DNA from: Pelagicoccus sp.
GTDB lineage: Bacteria; Verrucomicrobiota; Verrucomicrobiia; Opitutales; Opitutaceae
Assembly: GCA_028284635.1 (NCBI GenBank)
Contig: JANQRJ010000056.1
Coordinates: forward strand, 1 to 49,741
Length of the DNA stretch: 49,741 nt
Direction: 5' to 3'
The stretch's first letter is position 1, and every line of letters begins with the position of its first letter. The notes under the pieces were generated by a model. The model was given only the letters and a program-made list of their open reading frames with translations, made no database searches and had not been told where the DNA came from. Both the position numbers and the translations under genes were made by a program. Shown here piece by piece: positions 12,214 through 49,741 of the stretch.

Positions 12214-12231
12214 ACCCAGAACGCCCTCAGG

Positions 12232-12294
12232 GTAGCCGAAGTCGACAGACTTTGGTCCGCTCCCCATTCTCCAAAGTCTTTCGACTTCGGCTAC
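12232..12294. repeat. Palindromic element, family B
   Basis: Arms GTAGCCGAAGTCGACAGACT and AGTCTTTCGACTTCGGCTAC form an imperfect palindrome between the ATPase and first permease genes. Related copies stand at 15914-15988, 30715-30786 and 41816-41872. Confidence 0.85.
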
Positions 12295-14862: not shown

Positions 14863-14940
14863 TCCCTGGGAACGCGGGCGGCTCGCCCGCAACTGGTACG
14901 ATCTCGATCGCTGCGGGCGAGCCGCCCGCGTTCCCAGGGA
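14863..14940. repeat. Palindromic element, family C (78 nt)
   Basis: Perfect 29-bp arms (beginning TCCCTGGGAACGCGGGCGG) with a 20-nt middle. It could also end the export operon transcript as a strong hairpin, but no T-tract follows. Copies stand at 20875-20947 and 29925-29997. Confidence 0.9.
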
Positions 14941-15856: not shown

Positions 15857-15913
15857 GCAGTCAAACTTCATCCCCTTCCTCATCCGGGTGTGTTTCAAAG
15901 AGTCGCTGGACCT

Positions 15914-15988
15914 GCCAAACTCTCTCGAATTCGGCTACCCTCGACCGTGCAAAGCATACTTCAGTAGCCGAACTCGAGAGAGTTTGGC
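15914..15988. repeat. Palindromic element, family B, with one outer arm at 15887
   Basis: Arms GCCAAACTCTCTCGAATTCG and the matching GTAGCCGAACTCGAGAGAGT. To the left at 15887 is GGGTGTGTTTCAAAG, the outer arm seen in full in the nested copy at 30673-30816. The right outer arm is absent here. Confidence 0.8.
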
Positions 15989-16002
15989 ACAGCCGTTCCT
16001 AC

Positions 16003-18609: not shown

Positions 18610-18634
18610 GGCGCCTTTCAGGGCAGGACAATCC

Positions 18635-18786
18635 GTAGCGCGGATCCCGCAGGGCGGGACCGCGACCGCAATTCGCCCTCATCATCCCCTTCCTCATCTT
18701 TATCCTCATCCCAGGATGATGAGGAGGATAAAGATGATAATAAGGATAAGAACCGTCGCGGCTCCGCCCTGCGGGATCCGCGCTAC
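18635..18786. repeat. Composite palindrome, family A with polypurine/polypyrimidine core (152 nt)
   Basis: Outer arms GTAGCGCGGATCCCGCAGGG and CCCTGCGGGATCCGCGCTAC enclose an inner hairpin. In it a pyrimidine run (CCTCATCTTTATCCTCATCC) faces a purine run (GGATGATGAGGAGGATAAAG). Same design at 26994-27146, 28391-28510 and 49525-49645. Confidence 0.88.
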
Positions 18787-19978: not shown

Positions 19979-20174
19979 CCGTAGCCGCGTTCGTGAGTAC
20001 CGAGGCGGCAGCCAACAGCGGAGCGAAAAACACGCGGGAAACCATCGCGGACGCGTGCTGAAGTCTACCTTGTTCAATCTCTGGAACCATCTCGAATGTA
20101 GGGTCGTCGCTCGCGACGTACCGCGTAGGTTCCGATCTATGCTCTGCGGCACGGCGACGAGCGCCGGCCCTACA
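19979..20174. repeat. Repeat cluster: family H fragment and palindrome of family D
   Basis: A half copy of family H (CGTAGCCGCGTTCGTGAG) begins at 19979. Then 20097-20174 is a palindrome with ends TGTAGGGTCGTCGCTCG and CGACGAGCGCCGGCCCTACA. A second family D copy stands at 40546-40625. A family A-like end (GTAGCGCGGATCCCGC) starts near 19929. No gene is seen between 19906 and 20235. Confidence 0.75.
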
Positions 20175-20745: not shown

Positions 20746-20874
20746 ACGGGCTACCGATACACGCTTTCGCAGCCGCGTCGAGAATTCTAGGAACGATTTC
20801 ACAGTAGACGGGTACGACTAAACAACTGTGTCCTAGCAGGAGCTTGAGACCGTTTGCTTGTTGGCTTTCTACTT

Positions 20875-20947
20875 CTGGAAACGCGGGCGGCTCGCCCGCA
20901 ATTGGCCTGATCTTGCATGGCTGCGGGCGAGCCGCCCGCGTTCCCAG
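20875..20947. repeat. Palindromic element, family C (73 nt)
   Basis: 26-bp arms with one mismatch (CTGGAAACGCGGGCGG on the left against CTGGGAACGCGGGCGG). It stands between the cysteine-rich small gene and ferritin. Confidence 0.88.
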
Positions 20948-20966
20948 CGGTGGGCCGCACCCACTG

Positions 20967-26993: not shown

Positions 26994-27146
26994 TAACGCG
27001 GAGCTTCAGCCCGCGTGCGCATTGTTTCTTATCCTCATCCTCATCATCTTCCTCATCCTCATCTTTATCCTTGGATGAGGATGAAGATGAGGAGCGGGAT
27101 GATGAGGGCGAATCGCGGACGCGGGCTTGCTAAAGCTCCACGCTAC
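26994..27146. repeat. Composite palindrome, family A with polypurine core (153 nt)
   Basis: Outer ends TAACGCGGAGCTTCAGCCCG and GCTAAAGCTCCACGCTAC. The core has a long pyrimidine run (27028-27071) facing a purine run (27075-27108) that can fold into a hairpin. Confidence 0.85.
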
Positions 27147-28357: not shown

Positions 28358-28390
28358 CGGCAAGTCGCTCCGCAGTAACTCGCTTGCAAC

Positions 28391-28510
28391 GTAGCGCGGA
28401 TCTCGCGGGGCGGGACCGCGATCGTCACGTTTCTTATCCTCATCACCTTCTTCATCTTTATCCTGGGATGAGGATGAAGATGAGGAGAAGGGATGATGAG
28501 GGAGCGCTAC
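28391..28510. repeat. Composite palindrome, family A with polypurine core (120 nt)
   Basis: Ends GTAGCGCGGATCTCGCGGGG and GGAGCGCTAC, with an inner hairpin of TTCATCTTTATCCTGGGATG followed by AGGATGAAGATGAGGAG. A further widespread motif (TTCGACAGGCTCAGGGCCAT) lies at about 28599. The gap 28358-28675 holds no gene. Confidence 0.85.
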
Positions 28511-28675
28511 GGACGGCAACAGCCCATGCACGACACTAGCAATGTAGGACCTTCGCTTATGACTCAGCGTAGTTCGAAGAACGAAGACGGTTGCCCGTTC
28601 GACAGGCTCAGGGCCATGAGCTCATTCGGATGGCGAAGCGCCGCAGCTGCCCAATCCAAGAACAACCCGCCATCG

Positions 28676-29803: not shown

Positions 29804-29924
29804 ATCGAAACACAAGGCTAGGAAAAGCGCCGTCCAGAGCAAGCAGTTCGCCCAAGCGGCAATCAATACTGGATCCCTACATGCACGCAGACAAATATGG
29901 GCTCGACTAAATTCGTGTCCTCCC

Positions 29925-29997
29925 CTGGGAACGCGGGCGGCTCGCCCGCAGCTATGCGAGCTCAGACCAGTTGCGGGCGAGCCGCCCGCGTTCCCAG
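29925..29997. repeat. Palindromic element, family C (73 nt)
   Basis: Perfect 26-bp arms CTGGGAACGCGGGCGG... with a 21-nt middle, lying in the divergent space between the HtrA-like gene and the Fur-family gene. Confidence 0.9.
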
Positions 29998-30118
29998 AAA
30001 GACAGGCAAACGGCCTCAAGGCTTCTACTGGGACACGGTGTCAATCGCGCCTCTCGTCGCCGTGCGGTCAGAATTGCGTTGAGGCAGACAAAGCGTTCGC
30101 TAGCTTCGCCATTCGACA

Positions 30119-30572: not shown

Positions 30573-30836
30573 ACGTAACGCGGATCCCGCTCTGCAGGAA
30601 CGCGTCCGTGGAGGACGGAGCCTGCATTACCCTTCGACAAACTCAAGATCTCCGACGGACGCGGGCTGAAGCGGGTGTGTTTCAAAGTTTCGCCTTCCAA
30701 ATCGCGACGCTGTGCCAAACTCTTTCGAGTTCGGCTACTGAAGCAAGCTCTGCACAGTCGAGGTAGCCGAACTCGAGAGAGTTTGGTAAACTCAGGCGAC
30801 ACTTCGAAACACACCCGGCTAAAGCTCCGCGCTACG
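30573..30836. repeat. Nested repeat: family B-type element inside a family A element
   Basis: The outer element has family A ends (TAACGCGGATCCCGC on the left, AAAGCTCCGCGCTAC on the right). Inside it, 30673-30816 is an element with inverted ends GGGTGTGTTTC / GAAACACACCC and an inner family B palindrome (30715-30786). The inner element is flanked by an imperfect 9-bp direct repeat, GGCTGAAGC (30664-30672) and GGCTAAAGC (30817-30825), which looks like a target duplication. Confidence 0.8.
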
Positions 30837-40545: not shown

Positions 40546-40625
40546 TGTAGGGCTGCCGCTTGCGGCACGCCGCATCTGCCAGGACTTTTCCTGCAACGCG
40601 GTGCGGCGCAAGCGCCGACCCTACA
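40546..40625. repeat. Palindromic element, family D (80 nt)
   Basis: Ends TGTAGGGCTGCCGCTTGCGG and CGCAAGCGCCGACCCTACA. Outside it a further inverted pair (CCCAAATAAGT near 40529, ACTTATTGGAC near 40638) extends the structure. Confidence 0.8.
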
Positions 40626-41779: not shown

Positions 41780-41912
41780 CGCGGAGCTTAAGTCCGCGGC
41801 CGCAATGCAAGATCCGTAGCCGAAGTCGAGAGACTTTAGTCGAGGAATCCAAAGTCTTTCGAATTCGGCTACATCCTAGGACTATGGACGCAGGCTTGTT
41901 GAAGCCCGCACT
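41777..41912. repeat. Family A remnant enclosing a family B palindrome
   Basis: Starts with the agmatinase stop codon (TAGCGCGGAGCTTAAGTCCG) and ends near CAGGCTTGTTGAAGCCCGC. The inner family B copy occupies 41816-41872 (GTAGCCGAAGTCGAGAGACT / AGTCTTTCGAATTCGGCTAC). Confidence 0.75.
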
Positions 41913-45005: not shown

Positions 45006-46030
45006 CCTGGGGAAGCGAACAATGGCTCTGGGGCCTCGCCCTGCCCGCGCTCCTCCTGCTGTGGAATCTCTTCCACCGCAGCCGCGAAGCGACCCGCAAC
45101 GGTTTGGCCAAAGCTTCCTTCGCCACGGCAGGATTCGCGGGTGTCCAGCAAACCTCCCGACGAGCCCGCCGTCCGCTGAAGCTGTTCCTCGTCCTCGCTC
45201 TCGCCCTGCTTGCCGTATCCATGGCTCAACCACGTTGGGGCTCCGAGCGACGCGTCACCTTCGAGCGAAGCCGCGAAGTCATTATCGCAATGGACCTTTC
45301 CAAGAGCATGCTCGCTACCGATCTCAAGCCCAACCGACTCGAACGGGCCAAGCTCGTGGTGGACGCCATGCTTGAGTCCCTGCAAGGCGAAAGCGTCGGA
45401 CTGATAGTCTTCGCCGGCACCGCGTTTCTGCAAAGCCCGATGAGCCCCGACTACCAGATCCTGCGCAACTTCCTGCGCGAGCTCGATCCCAGCTTCGTGC
45501 CGCAAGGGGGAACCAACTACCAGCAGATGCTCAACACCGCCCTGGACTCCTTCAAGCAAAGCGACGGCCGAGCCGATCGGTTTCTCATCGTCATAAGCGA
45601 CGGAGAGAGTCTGGACTCGGACTGGAAAAACGAGGCCGAAAAGCTTCGAACGCAAAACGTGAAAGCCATCTGCCTGGGCGTCGGCACAAGGGAAGGCTCG
45701 CTCATCCCAGACGGCCAAGGCGGCTACCACAAGGACCCGCAAGGCGCAGTGGTGTTCAGCAAGCTGGAACGCAGCACGCTTATGGAACTCGCCGACATAA
45801 CCAACGGAGTCTACCGCGATTCCGGCACCTGGATAGATCTCGCCGCGCTGGTGGAAGACACCGTGAAGAAAGGTCAAGCCGAGCTTAAGGAACGCGAGCG
45901 AGAAGAAGCCCAAATCGAACGCTATCACTACTTCCTCGCCCCTGGCCTGCTCTTCCTGCTGCTCTCCATCTACCGCGAGTTCCCCGCCATGCCCAAAGCC
46001 AGAACCATTAACCGAAAGGCCACAGCATGA
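45002..46030 (+). CDS. batB: BatB: membrane-anchored von Willebrand factor A protein
   Basis: A 342-residue paralogue of BatA. Helices WLWGLALPALLLLWNLF and FLVLALALLAVSMAQP come before a VWA domain with MIDAS D98-L-S100-K-S102 (IAMDLSKSML), GGTNYQQM and VISDGES. A C-terminal helix stands near YFLAPGLLFLLLSIYREF. It starts with GTG overlapping the BatA stop, and ends overlapping the next start (ATGA), so the set is tightly coupled. Confidence 0.95.
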   Translation: MTWGSEQWLWGLALPALLLLWNLFHRSREATRNGLAKASFATAGFAGVQQTSRRARRPLKLFLVLALALLAVSMAQPRWGSERRVTFERSREVIIAMDLSKSMLATDLKPNRLERAKLVVDAMLESLQGESVGLIVFAGTAFLQSPMSPDYQILRNFLRELDPSFVPQGGTNYQQMLNTALDSFKQSDGRADRFLIVISDGESLDSDWKNEAEKLRTQNVKAICLGVGTREGSLIPDGQGGYHKDPQGAVVFSKLERSTLMELADITNGVYRDSGTWIDLAALVEDTVKKGQAELKEREREEAQIERYHYFLAPGLLFLLLSIYREFPAMPKARTINRKATA

Positions 46031-46905
46031 AAATCTGGATACAACCAAAGGTAGGGACCGACCGCCGGGCGGTCCGCAGAGAATCGATATTGCATTGCGG
46101 ACCGACCGGCCCTTCGACTCAGCTCAGGGCGGTGAGCCTGCCGAACCGCGGTCGGTCCCTACCCCTCCTTCTAGCGCTTTGCGCTCCACTCCTAGCCGAA
46201 AACCAGCCAGAACAGCCGCTAGCCTTCGACAAATTCGTCGGCGAAATCGCCGAAAAGGAGGATCGCGCCGCAACCGACTATCGCCAAATGGCCGAAGGCA
46301 CTCTCAGCATCGCCCAGCAAGGCCAGCAAGCCGGTCAGATGCTCCCGCCTCCCGTCATCCACGACGCGCTCGATGCCGTCGAAGCCGGACGGGCGCTCAA
46401 TCCAATAGCTGCGGACTGGGATGAGCTCCAGCGACTCCTCGAAGAACTCCTCGAACAACAGGAACAGCAGCAGCAAGAACAGCAAAGCGACTCGTCTCAG
46501 GAAAATGGAGACGAATCACAAGAGAGCCAGGAAGGCCAAGACCAACAGCAAAACGACCAGCAAGGCAGCGAAGGCGAACAACAGGATTCCCAGGAGGACG
46601 GACAAGGCGAGAAAGACGACAGCCAGTCTCAGAACAACCAAGACGGCGCCCAGGTAGGCGATCTCGGCGAGCAGGAGCAGCCCGAGATAAAACTCTCGCA
46701 AGGCGAGCCCGGCGAGGAGCGGGAAATGCAATCGGTCGGAGGACAGGACAAACCCGAACAGCAGATCGCCGCTGAAAACGCCGCCATTCTACAGAAGCTG
46801 GAGCAACTCAAGCAGCAGGACGACCCCTCCAAGCTTTTCCAGATCCTGCAAGAAGCCCAAACAGGAGAGAAATCCCAGCCGCAGCCAAACGCCAAGGATT
46901 GGTAG
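46027..46905 (+). CDS. BatC-like exported acidic protein, with repeat-encoded insertion in its signal peptide
   Basis: A 292-residue protein in the BatC place of the operon. Residues 9-46 are encoded by a 114-nt palindrome (46050-46163), which separates the first residues MKIWIQP from LLLALCAPLLAENQPEQ. Without it the N-terminus would be MKIWIQPNLLLALCAPLLAE, a normal signal peptide. The mature part begins with a short helical domain (about 66-140: FDKFVGEIAEKEDRAATDY). A long Gln/Glu/Asp/Ser-rich low-complexity stretch follows (about 140-245), then a short helical end (AAENAAILQKLEQLKQQDDP). Classical TPR motifs of BatC are not obvious. Export may be hampered by the insertion, or an internal start may be used. 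Confidence 0.82.
   Translation: MKIWIQPKVGTDRRAVRRESILHCGPTGPSTQLRAVSLPNRGRSLPLLLALCAPLLAENQPEQPLAFDKFVGEIAEKEDRAATDYRQMAEGTLSIAQQGQQAGQMLPPPVIHDALDAVEAGRALNPIAADWDELQRLLEELLEQQEQQQQEQQSDSSQENGDESQESQEGQDQQQNDQQGSEGEQQDSQEDGQGEKDDSQSQNNQDGAQVGDLGEQEQPEIKLSQGEPGEEREMQSVGGQDKPEQQIAAENAAILQKLEQLKQQDDPSKLFQILQEAQTGEKSQPQPNAKDW
46050..46163. repeat. Palindromic element, family E (114 nt, in frame inside a gene)
   Basis: Ends GGTAGGGACCGACCGC and GCGGTCGGTCCCTACC are perfect inverted repeats. Inside are a second inverted pair (GGTCCGCA / TGCGGACC) and the widespread motif CCTTCGACTCAGCTCAGGGC. Length is exactly 38 codons and the passing frame has no stop. Confidence 0.92.
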
Positions 46906-46954: not shown

Positions 46955-49528
46955 ATGCCAGCGCATCGTCGAAGCCTCGTTACTATAGCAATCGCCATCC
47001 TGCTTGGCGTATCCACTTCCTGGGCACAGTCTGTCTACTGGTCCCCGCCAAGCGGGTCTCTCCAGGTCGGCAAGGTCAACACGCTCAGTCTCTTTTTCGA
47101 GGACTGCTCGCCCCAAGGAGAGCCGGAACTCCCGGAGATTCCCGGCCTGGAACTGCGCTTCCGCGGGTCCTCGAACTCCACCAGCATCGTCAACGGGCGA
47201 CGCAGCTCCAAGACGATCGTCAACTACCAGGCTATCCCCGGTCAGCTCGGCTCCTTCACTATCCCAGCCATGACCGTGAATAGCTCCGCAGGGCCTATCA
47301 ATGTGCCTGCCGCCCGCTACGAGATAGTGGAAGCCACGGTGGGAAATACCGGAATCAAGCCTGGCGACGTTTTTCTCTCGCGTATCCAGATTCAGGATGC
47401 GGAGATCTACGAGGGCGAAGTATTCGATCTCGAGTATTTCGCCGGAGCCAAACGTCAGTACCAGCTCGCTGAACTATCGGAACCAGTCTGGGATCCTGCC
47501 GACGTCGTCACGGCCGGACTGGAGGAGCGTGGCACCGGCGAGATAGAACTAGCCGGCCAGCGCTACACTGTCGCGGCCTACGATGCTCAGCTCATGGCTA
47601 CCGAAAGCCGGGCCATCGAAATCTCTGGCCCAAAGCAGACCGCGACGATCGTAGTCGGCCGCAACCGGGACTTCCTGTTCCAGCAGCCGGTGTACGATTC
47701 CTTCGCCCTGCAAGCCGAACCCCTCGTCGTACGCATAAAGCCCCTGCCTCCAAGCGCCCCAGCGAGTTTCGCCGGAGCCGTCGGCGACTTCACCCTACAG
47801 TCGCGCGTCGTACCCGAAGAGGTCCAGGTTGGCGAACCCGTCACCTGGACTCTCGAGCTCAAGGGCAAGGGAAATTGGCCGGCCGGAATCGGCGTGCCCG
47901 CCCGTTCCGTCGCCAAGAGCTTCCGAACGATCCAGCCGGATCTCAAAAACGAATTCCCAGAAAACGACCTCTTCGACGGGTCGCAGTCCGAAGACATCGT
48001 GCTCATCCCCACCGAACCTGGCGTATTTCAGTTCGGACCGATAGACTACAGCTACTTCGACCCCAGCGATGGCAGGTACAAGACGATCTCCATACCAGCC
48101 ACCAGCGTGACCGTCACGCCAAGCGCAGCCCCGCAAGGGCCAGGCGTTGAAGCGGGCAAGATCGCTCCAGAAGCTGGATACACAGCAGATCCCTCGGACT
48201 TCGATTTCAGTCCCACTGGCGACAATGCCGCAATGAAATCGCCCGAACTGCCCAAGGAACCCGCCGCTGGACAAAGCTATCGCGTGGCGCCTCAAGGCAA
48301 AGTCCACCTGCTCCAGCCCACTCTCCTGGCAATCGCGGCTCCGCTAGCCCTCTGGCTCCTCTTGGCAATTGGCCAAAGCCTGAGACTCGACCCCAAAAGG
48401 CCAAATCGTCGAGCTCTGCGAAAGCTGCGCGCCCTCGGCAAAAAGGAGGTCTCAGCCGATCCGACAGCGCGACGCGCCCACCAACGCGCTTGGCGCAAGG
48501 CCGCAGCTGCGTATTTGAATCTGAATACAAAGGAACCTACTCCCGACGAGATAGCTCGAGCTGCCGAGGCGATTGGAGACCGCGAACTCGCGGAAAAGTG
48601 GCGAGAACTCTGGCTGCGCTCCGACAGAATCCTCTTCCGAGCCCAAATGGAGGAAGACCGGAGCTGGTCGCAAGACGCCCGCGAGCTTGTGAAGAAGTCG
48701 CCCCGCCCTCGCTACTCGCCAACCCTGATCTTCACAAAAGGATCCTGGTTCGCCGCGCTGGGCATAGCGCTGGCCATTGTCAGCCTAGCGCCCGAAATGG
48801 CAGCCCAAGAGGCTGCGGAGCTCTATGCCAAAGGAGACTTCGCTCAGGCCGAAGAGCTCTGGACCAAGGCGGTCGACGCCCAACCTAACGTATTCGAAAA
48901 CCGCTACAATGCCGGACTCGCCGCGGCCCAGCAAAAGGACTGGGGCAGGGCCTGGGGCTACTGGCTCGGAGCTTTTTGCCTCGACCCGAATGACGAACGG
49001 GTCATCTGGAATCTTCGCTTGGCCCACTCGAACACAGGCGCCTTCGACCCCTTGCTACGGGACCTGCTCGATCGCGACGGCGTCTACCGGCTGATCCGCT
49101 GGCGCTCTCCAGCCGGTTGGGAAAGCTTCGCTCGCGGAGCGATCGTCTTCGCAGGTATCGGTTTCGCCCTTGCCGTGCTGTCCGTCTACGGCCGGAGGCT
49201 GCGGAGACTAGCTTGGCCCTTGCTCATAGTCGGCATCCTGGGAGTTGTCGGCGGCTATTTCGGCAAGTGGGCTGCTTCGAAGTACGAGGGTCTCGGAAGT
49301 CCAGACACGCTACTGATCGTACAAGAAACGCCGCTCCGCTCCATTCCCACCGATCTCGCCGAGGAGCAGATCGCAAGCTCGGTCCGCGAAGGAACGGTAG
49401 CTCAAGCGCGAAAGAGCTTTCTCAGCTGGATCAAGGTAGAACTCCCCAACGAGGAGGTCGGCTGGATACGACGCAACGCAACGCTGCCGCTCTACGGACC
49501 GATTCAAGGGGAGTCCGGGTCCCCGTAG
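46955..49528 (+). CDS. Fused BatD-BatE protein (oxygen-tolerance family) with SH3-like end
   Basis: An 857-residue protein. Residues 1-25 are a signal peptide (cut after SWAQ). Residues 27-440 form the BatD part (QSVYWSPPSGSLQVGKVNTLS start, immunoglobulin-like repeats), with a helix near 450-465 (LLAIAAPLALWLLLAIG). At about 597-618 is a second hydrophobic stretch ending MAAQEA that looks like a former BatE signal peptide. TPR-type repeats follow (AAELYAKGDFAQAEELWTKA, ENRYNAGLAAAQQKDWGRAW). Two helices then stand at about 726-770, and last an SH3-like domain (about 785-855: VQETPLRSIPTDLAEEQ...WIKVELPNEEVGWI). In many bacteria BatD and BatE are separate. The TAG stop codon belongs to the start of a family A repeat. 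Confidence 0.9.
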   Translation: MPAHRRSLVTIAIAILLGVSTSWAQSVYWSPPSGSLQVGKVNTLSLFFEDCSPQGEPELPEIPGLELRFRGSSNSTSIVNGRRSSKTIVNYQAIPGQLGSFTIPAMTVNSSAGPINVPAARYEIVEATVGNTGIKPGDVFLSRIQIQDAEIYEGEVFDLEYFAGAKRQYQLAELSEPVWDPADVVTAGLEERGTGEIELAGQRYTVAAYDAQLMATESRAIEISGPKQTATIVVGRNRDFLFQQPVYDSFALQAEPLVVRIKPLPPSAPASFAGAVGDFTLQSRVVPEEVQVGEPVTWTLELKGKGNWPAGIGVPARSVAKSFRTIQPDLKNEFPENDLFDGSQSEDIVLIPTEPGVFQFGPIDYSYFDPSDGRYKTISIPATSVTVTPSAAPQGPGVEAGKIAPEAGYTADPSDFDFSPTGDNAAMKSPELPKEPAAGQSYRVAPQGKVHLLQPTLLAIAAPLALWLLLAIGQSLRLDPKRPNRRALRKLRALGKKEVSADPTARRAHQRAWRKAAAAYLNLNTKEPTPDEIARAAEAIGDRELAEKWRELWLRSDRILFRAQMEEDRSWSQDARELVKKSPRPRYSPTLIFTKGSWFAALGIALAIVSLAPEMAAQEAAELYAKGDFAQAEELWTKAVDAQPNVFENRYNAGLAAAQQKDWGRAWGYWLGAFCLDPNDERVIWNLRLAHSNTGAFDPLLRDLLDRDGVYRLIRWRSPAGWESFARGAIVFAGIGFALAVLSVYGRRLRRLAWPLLIVGILGVVGGYFGKWAASKYEGLGSPDTLLIVQETPLRSIPTDLAEEQIASSVREGTVAQARKSFLSWIKVELPNEEVGWIRRNATLPLYGPIQGESGSP

Positions 49529-49645
49529 CGCGGAGGTCGCTTTGCGGGACCACGTCCGCGTTGTTTCTTATCCTCATCATCTTCTTCATCCTCATCTTTA
49601 TCCTGGGATGAGGATGAAGATGAGGAGAGGCGACCCGCAAAGCGC
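49525..49645. repeat. Composite palindrome, family A with polypurine core
   Basis: GTAGCGCGGAGGTCGCTTTG begins inside the BatD-E stop codon. The inner hairpin pairs a pyrimidine run (49563-49602) with a purine run (GGGATGAGGATGAAGATGAG from 49606). The right end GGCGACCCGCAAAGCGCATA mirrors the left. Confidence 0.85.
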
Positions 49646-49741
49646 ATAGGCGTCAACTTAAGCCGAAAGGCGGTGGGCTGGAGGGCAATGCTCCGTCATT
49701 GCCGCGGAGCCTACAGAGGGAACAACCGGTGCGGCAACGAC
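49642..49741. repeat. Palindromic element, family I (left part, cut by the window end)
   Basis: GGAGGGCAATGCTCCGTCAT begins the left arm (49680-49705). The middle 49702-49741 is identical to window positions 15-54, where the right arm GCGGCAACGACGGAGCGTTG continues. 49642-49660 is the inverse of 88-106. The element is therefore present at both ends of the window. Confidence 0.8.

Follow-up and report, generated by a model that had tools for sequence, protein, structure and literature searches.

What becomes of a gene for a putative exported protein when a mobile palindrome lands, in frame, inside its signal peptide? The question is raised by a BatC-like gene near the end of a Pelagicoccus sp. 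contig, which we analyzed as a single stretch of 49,741 nucleotides (the window). The gene (46027-46905, forward strand, 292 amino acids) was recognized from the list of open reading frames (ORFs) and from orthologues in relatives; its ORF had no Pfam or NCBIfam match. The gene order is MoxR, DUF58, two VWA genes, the BatC-like gene, and a BatD gene, and the VWA gene directly upstream of the BatC-like gene (batC hereafter) is taken as BatB-like. The ATG start codon of batC (46027-46029, forward strand), whose position is conserved in the genus, is preceded by the Shine-Dalgarno-like GAAAGG and overlaps the stop codon of the BatB-like gene (ATGA). With the batC codons that follow the palindrome as the query, hits came from 45 of the 76 genomes, including this one. 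The N-terminus is presumed from its sequence to be a Sec signal peptide, with a basic n-region (charge of +7 with the palindrome included) and a hydrophobic core and presumed cleavage region, LLLALCAPLLAE (46165-46200, forward strand; core LLLALCAPLLA, mean Kyte-Doolittle value of 2.6).

The palindrome occupies 46050-46163 (no strand assigned), starting with GGTAGGGACCGACCG at 46050 and finishing with CGGTCGGTCCCTACC at 46163. Its terminal arms of 16 nt (46050-46065 and 46148-46163) are perfectly complementary, with self-matches of 100%, and the region 46040-46175 folds at -68.9 kcal/mol, versus -47.6 ± 4.0 kcal/mol in 200 dinucleotide shuffles, none of which was as stable (z = -5.35). The batC ORF stays open across it through 38 codons without a stop. 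The insertion point lies within codon 8 (46048-46050), and joining 46049 to 46164 keeps the frame, so that the net gain is 38 codons. The original prediction had described a stop-free 114-nt palindrome, a junction from 46049 to 46164 that restores the N-terminus, and an in-frame insert placed in the n-region ahead of the core. All of this was borne out: the core begins 46 residues after the start here, versus 3 to 8 residues in the six genus mates measured.

From its sequence, fold, and genome matches, the palindrome is almost certainly a GTAG REPIN, and a composite one. Three parts can be told apart, all read on the forward strand. The left 61 nt (46050-46110) are those of a 75-nt REPIN unit, namely, a GGTAG-tagged REP, the spacer, and the start of the right REP, as defined by the consensus of 19 simple copies. 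A 39-nt nested repeat in the right arm follows (46111-46149; from genome matches), and the right 14 nt of the 75-nt unit, with the end CCCTACC, close the element (46150-46163; from the sequence and the 19-copy alignment). A search with the first 35 nt of the nested repeat, at up to 3 mismatches, gave 13 genome matches, all 13 at composite copies and all already among the BLAST matches to the element. Since all nested-repeat places are composites, the 75-nt unit with its nested repeat seems to have spread in one piece.

We searched and sampled the own genome (G000; 4.57 Mb in 104 contigs) for the family. BLAST with the 114 nt gave 63 matches, a count that includes partial matches and both strands, and a covariance model built from the 19 simple copies, with 150 candidates scored per genome, gave at least 148 strand-wise matches. 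These correspond to at least 88 distinct places with the element or part of it. The 88 examined comprise 71 from the covariance-model listing and 17 from BLAST, several of them with the right half only, and leave out a contig-edge place, C62:1-63. The consensus unit of 75 nt has 26 base pairs and consists of two inverted GTAG-tagged REPs forming one hairpin. The left GGTAGGG and the right CCCTAC are invariant in all 19 aligned copies, and the last C of the right end differs in one, that of recC. The copies are dispersed and mostly extragenic. The genome-wide check of palindromes within ORFs, which had been proposed together with the locus, called 4 of the 88 places in frame within a gene, namely, in batC, recB, recC, and a FabA-domain gene. 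The calls rest on codon scores and open frames around unannotated gene boundaries; family models back them only in recB and recC and over part of the FabA-domain gene. One further place, C88:170015-170095, where both flanks are open and the coding score is weak, was counted neither way. At three places (C4:29420-29501, C3:43980-44054, and C60:18676-18756) the terminal TAG of the element is the stop codon of an upstream open frame, in one case that of a RAYT gene.

Among 69 full copies, 46 have a length that is a multiple of three (30 of 75 nt and 11 of 81 nt), and 8 are 74 nt long. When these copies were translated on both strands, phases 0 and 1 together were open 235 times out of 276, and their peptides had mean charges of +4.4 and +2.8, respectively. 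Phase 2 was open in 0 of 138 cases; it is always closed because the terminal GGTAG gives TAG. In composition shuffles, about 40 of 69 were open in each phase. None of this proves adaptation, given that the copies are mutually related and that two in-gene copies of the four, at 121 and 88 nt, have lengths not divisible by three. None of the 69 intact copies has four or more identical flanking bases; three have 3 (shuffle mean of 0.8, maximum of 4) and two have 2 (shuffle mean of 2.1). Because the commonest units (75 and 81 nt) and the 114-nt composite are multiples of three and there is no target duplication, insertions would tend to keep the frame. A classical DDE-transposase MITE was rejected on the absence of a target-site duplication.

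The base outside the terminal CC is a T at 77% of the 138 ends, giving CT across the junction there. In the batC copy, the left end has T outside and fits CT, and the right end has C and does not. The pattern resembles, as a comparison of sequences, the substrates of TnpA-REP, for which the biochemistry in part of PMC8266576 describes recognition of GTAG-tagged hairpins and cutting at CT dinucleotides.

A candidate for the enzyme lies between two copies of the element, C4:28903-28991 and C4:29420-29501. It is an ORF of 143 amino acids that matched NF047646 (REP_Tyr_transpos) at 83.8 bits, with a cutoff of 80 bits, and its stop codon is the TAG of the element itself. This cognate RAYT was detected by NCBIfam and by direct search; PF01797 found three RAYT-like places in the own genome, with the cognate RAYT below threshold. 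Four genus mates carry orthologues at 62 to 65% identity: G001, with 34 strand-wise element matches, G004, with 76, G005, with 13, and G007, with 32. In the mates without a close RAYT, there were two matches each in G002 (best RAYT identity of 44%) and G003 (29%) and none in G006, which has no RAYT. Hence, with the own genome and its at least 148 matches included, five of the eight genus genomes have a RAYT at 62% or above, and these are the five with 13 or more matches. Of the 21 RAYT matches, 13 loci were checked for adjoining elements, which were found at 6 of the 13 and at 4 of the 5 closest; none adjoined the 62% RAYT of G007 (L307) or the second RAYT of the own genome (L310). One element family is thus tied to its RAYT, abundance and RAYT presence go together in the genus, and this RAYT probably moves the element in trans. 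Two inverted REPs forming a hairpin, dispersal, a mostly extragenic location, and the link to a RAYT gene are also features of the REPINs in the sections of Bertels and Rainey 2011 (PMC3116915) that describe them; unlike those, the present family belongs to a verrucomicrobial genome and has some copies in frame within genes.

The seven genus mates also show what batC looks like in its relatives. The stretch is carried by none of the seven N-terminal parts, which were read by eye for the comparison with relatives that the original prediction had proposed. The overlap of the ATG with batB has the identical offset in six of the seven; batC of G006 apparently starts with GTG. GAAAGG precedes the ATG here and in five of the six mates measured, with CAAAGG in G002. 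The N-termini of BatC are too diverged among species for an exact alignment of the junction, and it is at genus level that the comparison makes an insertion in this lineage very probable. The shared start position and the batB overlap indicate that 46027 is likely the ancestral start and favor reading through the element. In this genus batB and batC are separate, overlapping genes, and the bat loci of relatives (L034 to L059) are often fused. At least 20 of the 33 family loci have BatB and BatC as one ORF, and further fusions may be concealed where a contig ends. The hydrophobic segment of these fused loci comes after a cytosolic stretch, which is basic in the examples inspected. By analogy with this arrangement, it is plausible that BatC would tolerate a long basic n-region.

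The explanation that we consider likely as a whole is that a REPIN in the batC signal peptide is read from ATG 46027 and removed with the signal. A GTAG REPIN, a nonautonomous palindromic element that probably depends on a RAYT acting in trans for its movement, would have entered batC between codon 8 and the hydrophobic core, without target duplication. With a length that is a multiple of three and an open phase, it would have added 38 codons for a basic, Arg-rich peptide. Translation would still begin at the ancestral ATG 46027, the added peptide would extend the cytosolic n-region, and signal peptidase would most likely discard it along with the signal, leaving mature BatC unaltered. Judged from the sequence, translation probably runs through the element, and we hold with somewhat less assurance that the added peptide would be cleaved away with the signal peptide; export and cleavage of BatC itself we infer from its N-terminus. 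Expression of batC may be reduced by the hairpin of about -69 kcal/mol, which sets in 23 nt downstream of the A of ATG 46027.

The alternative that survives best, though we think it unlikely, is that the element is effectively untranslated, a new 5' leader of a gene whose start has moved to a GTG inside it (46132-46134, forward strand). This GTG is in frame and yields MSLPNRGRSLPLLLALCAPLLAEN, a shorter, normal signal peptide with an n-region of about 11 residues, and a cautionary section of Di Nocera et al. 2013 (PMC3733652) holds many N-terminal REPs to be perhaps untranslated, with translation starting downstream. However, its Shine-Dalgarno context is poor, with AGGG only 2 nt upstream, whereas the ancestral ATG retains GAAAGG and the batB overlap seen in six of the seven mates, and reading from there meets no stop anywhere in the element.

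Insertion could instead have crippled batC, by the long n-region and the strong mRNA hairpin, so that the gene is being lost. The fold, far stronger than in shuffles (z = -5.35), and the ordinary n-region lengths of the six measured mates fit such a loss, but the 246 codons 3' of the element are open with a coding-like score, and the copies in recB and recC likewise sit within full-length open frames; we regard this reading as improbable. That the 114 nt belong to the gene's native coding sequence, or encode a useful peptide since domesticated, rather than being a mobile copy has very little in its favor beyond an open frame and a peptide that is basic like an n-region. It was rejected, since related DNA lies at the 88 examined places, with four called in frame within genes, and the stretch was not seen in batC of the seven mates. 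Least probable of all is a repeat wrongly placed in batC during assembly: the draft has 104 contigs and assemblies fail at repeats, but the frame is exact, the terminal arms are perfect, the gene sequence resumes on both sides, and similar in-frame cases occur in other assemblies.

An in-frame REPIN is not peculiar to batC in this genome. An in-frame copy in recB (C64:78679-78799) falls where the TIGR00609 alignment stops at 623 and resumes at 640, and one in recC (C64:82873-82947) falls where the TIGR01450 alignment runs to 410 and goes on from 411. The REP-encoded stretches of both genes were not seen in any of the seven genus mates, with a loose alignment at the recB site. A third copy (C64:80609-80683) lies between recB and recC, just before recB, which puts three within about 4.3 kb (L094). 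The copy in the FabA-domain gene (C40:8922-9009) is in frame within an open frame of 1,648 amino acids; compared with 56 relatives, this gene had one partial match, at 35%, besides the own genome.

We checked 91 places in G001, G004, G005, and G007, the set being confined to these four and not including the places in G002 and G003. One copy was in frame before a hydrophobic core, in an esterase-like gene of G005 (L100, G005:C2:441604-441678), where it lies between upstream ATGs and the core. A TTG after the element makes the start uncertain, and the copy is absent from the list of a stricter filter; from its sequence, it is a possible second signal-peptide case, in a sister species. Beyond the genus, an exact 27-nt arm pattern was found in at least 47 public stretches (L177 to L223), the sources listed being Kiritimatiellae, other Verrucomicrobia, and one Neomarinimicrobiota MAG. 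Of the 47 listed, 27 also match the REPIN model; the Neomarinimicrobiota stretch (L213) does not. Public contigs chosen by this pattern, with one edge match excluded, contained two in-gene copies (in mfd and in an RluA-family gene) among 49 of 50 distinct places listed. In 400 kb sampled from G010 (20 pieces of 20 kb), there were only seven strict GTAG/CTAC palindromes, with one doubtful ORF, and none in 100 kb of shuffled sequence.

The O. terrae that figures in the literature on GTAG REPs is presumably Opitutus terrae, which probably shares its family, Opitutaceae, with the present genome. Sections of Di Nocera et al. (PMC3733652) report in-frame GTAG REPs within genes, and it is in O. terrae, a member of the Verrucomicrobia, that these are most numerous. 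The surprise that the original prediction expressed at finding this in a Verrucomicrobia-type genome therefore does not hold. Targets named there include recBCD and other repair genes, and REP ends supply TAG stops. The present elements share with those REPs the GTAG tag, inverted dimers, a RAYT link, in-frame genic copies that include recBCD genes, and ends that supply TAG stops; as far as those sections go, batC differs in that its insert is located in the n-region of an export signal and contains a nested repeat of 39 nt, which makes it a composite. In-frame genic GTAG REPs are thus already published, and batC is a further case of a known phenomenon. A literature search, whose scope took in parts of PMC3733652 but not its gene list (Additional file 3), found no signal-peptide REP case.

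The likeness to Rickettsia palindromic elements that had also been proposed holds for behavior and fails for type. Those elements (Ogata et al., as covered in sections of PMC3733652 and PMC10969869) are palindromes that likewise enter ORFs in frame as extra peptide, but they carry a CGTC tag and apparently have no dedicated transposase (PMC3733652, in part), unlike the GTAG tag and RAYT here. A Rickettsia-type RPE was rejected on this tag.

What batC offers is a good model locus and no new principle, the general phenomenon being already in print. It is a clear and testable example of a mobile palindrome turned protein-coding at a site where the added residues should be disposable, in a genome in which the neighboring genes recC and recB both have copies. 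One might go further and suppose that hosts tolerate this REPIN family particularly well when it lands in signal-peptide n-regions, since the Arg-rich peptide from either open phase suits an n-region and cleavage would dispose of the added residues. We find this improbable; if true, the element would be a ready-made export-signal extension, open to co-option.

The window has other repeats as well. Weak matches to the REPIN model lie at 14868-14935, 20097-20174, 20873-20949, and 40546-40625. Another palindromic family is found at 18634-18786, 27034-27124, 28390-28515, and 49524-49630; most of its copies end in CGTAGCGCGGA, and the interiors of these palindromes are rich in ATCCTC / GATGAGGA. 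A further inverted-repeat family occupies 14863-14940, 20873-20953, and 29919-29999, and yet another 12229-12294, 15913-15993, 30709-30788, and 41816-41872. The last 40 bases of the window (49702-49741) are an exact repeat of 15-54, as if a repeat had interrupted the assembly or the contig had almost formed a circle.
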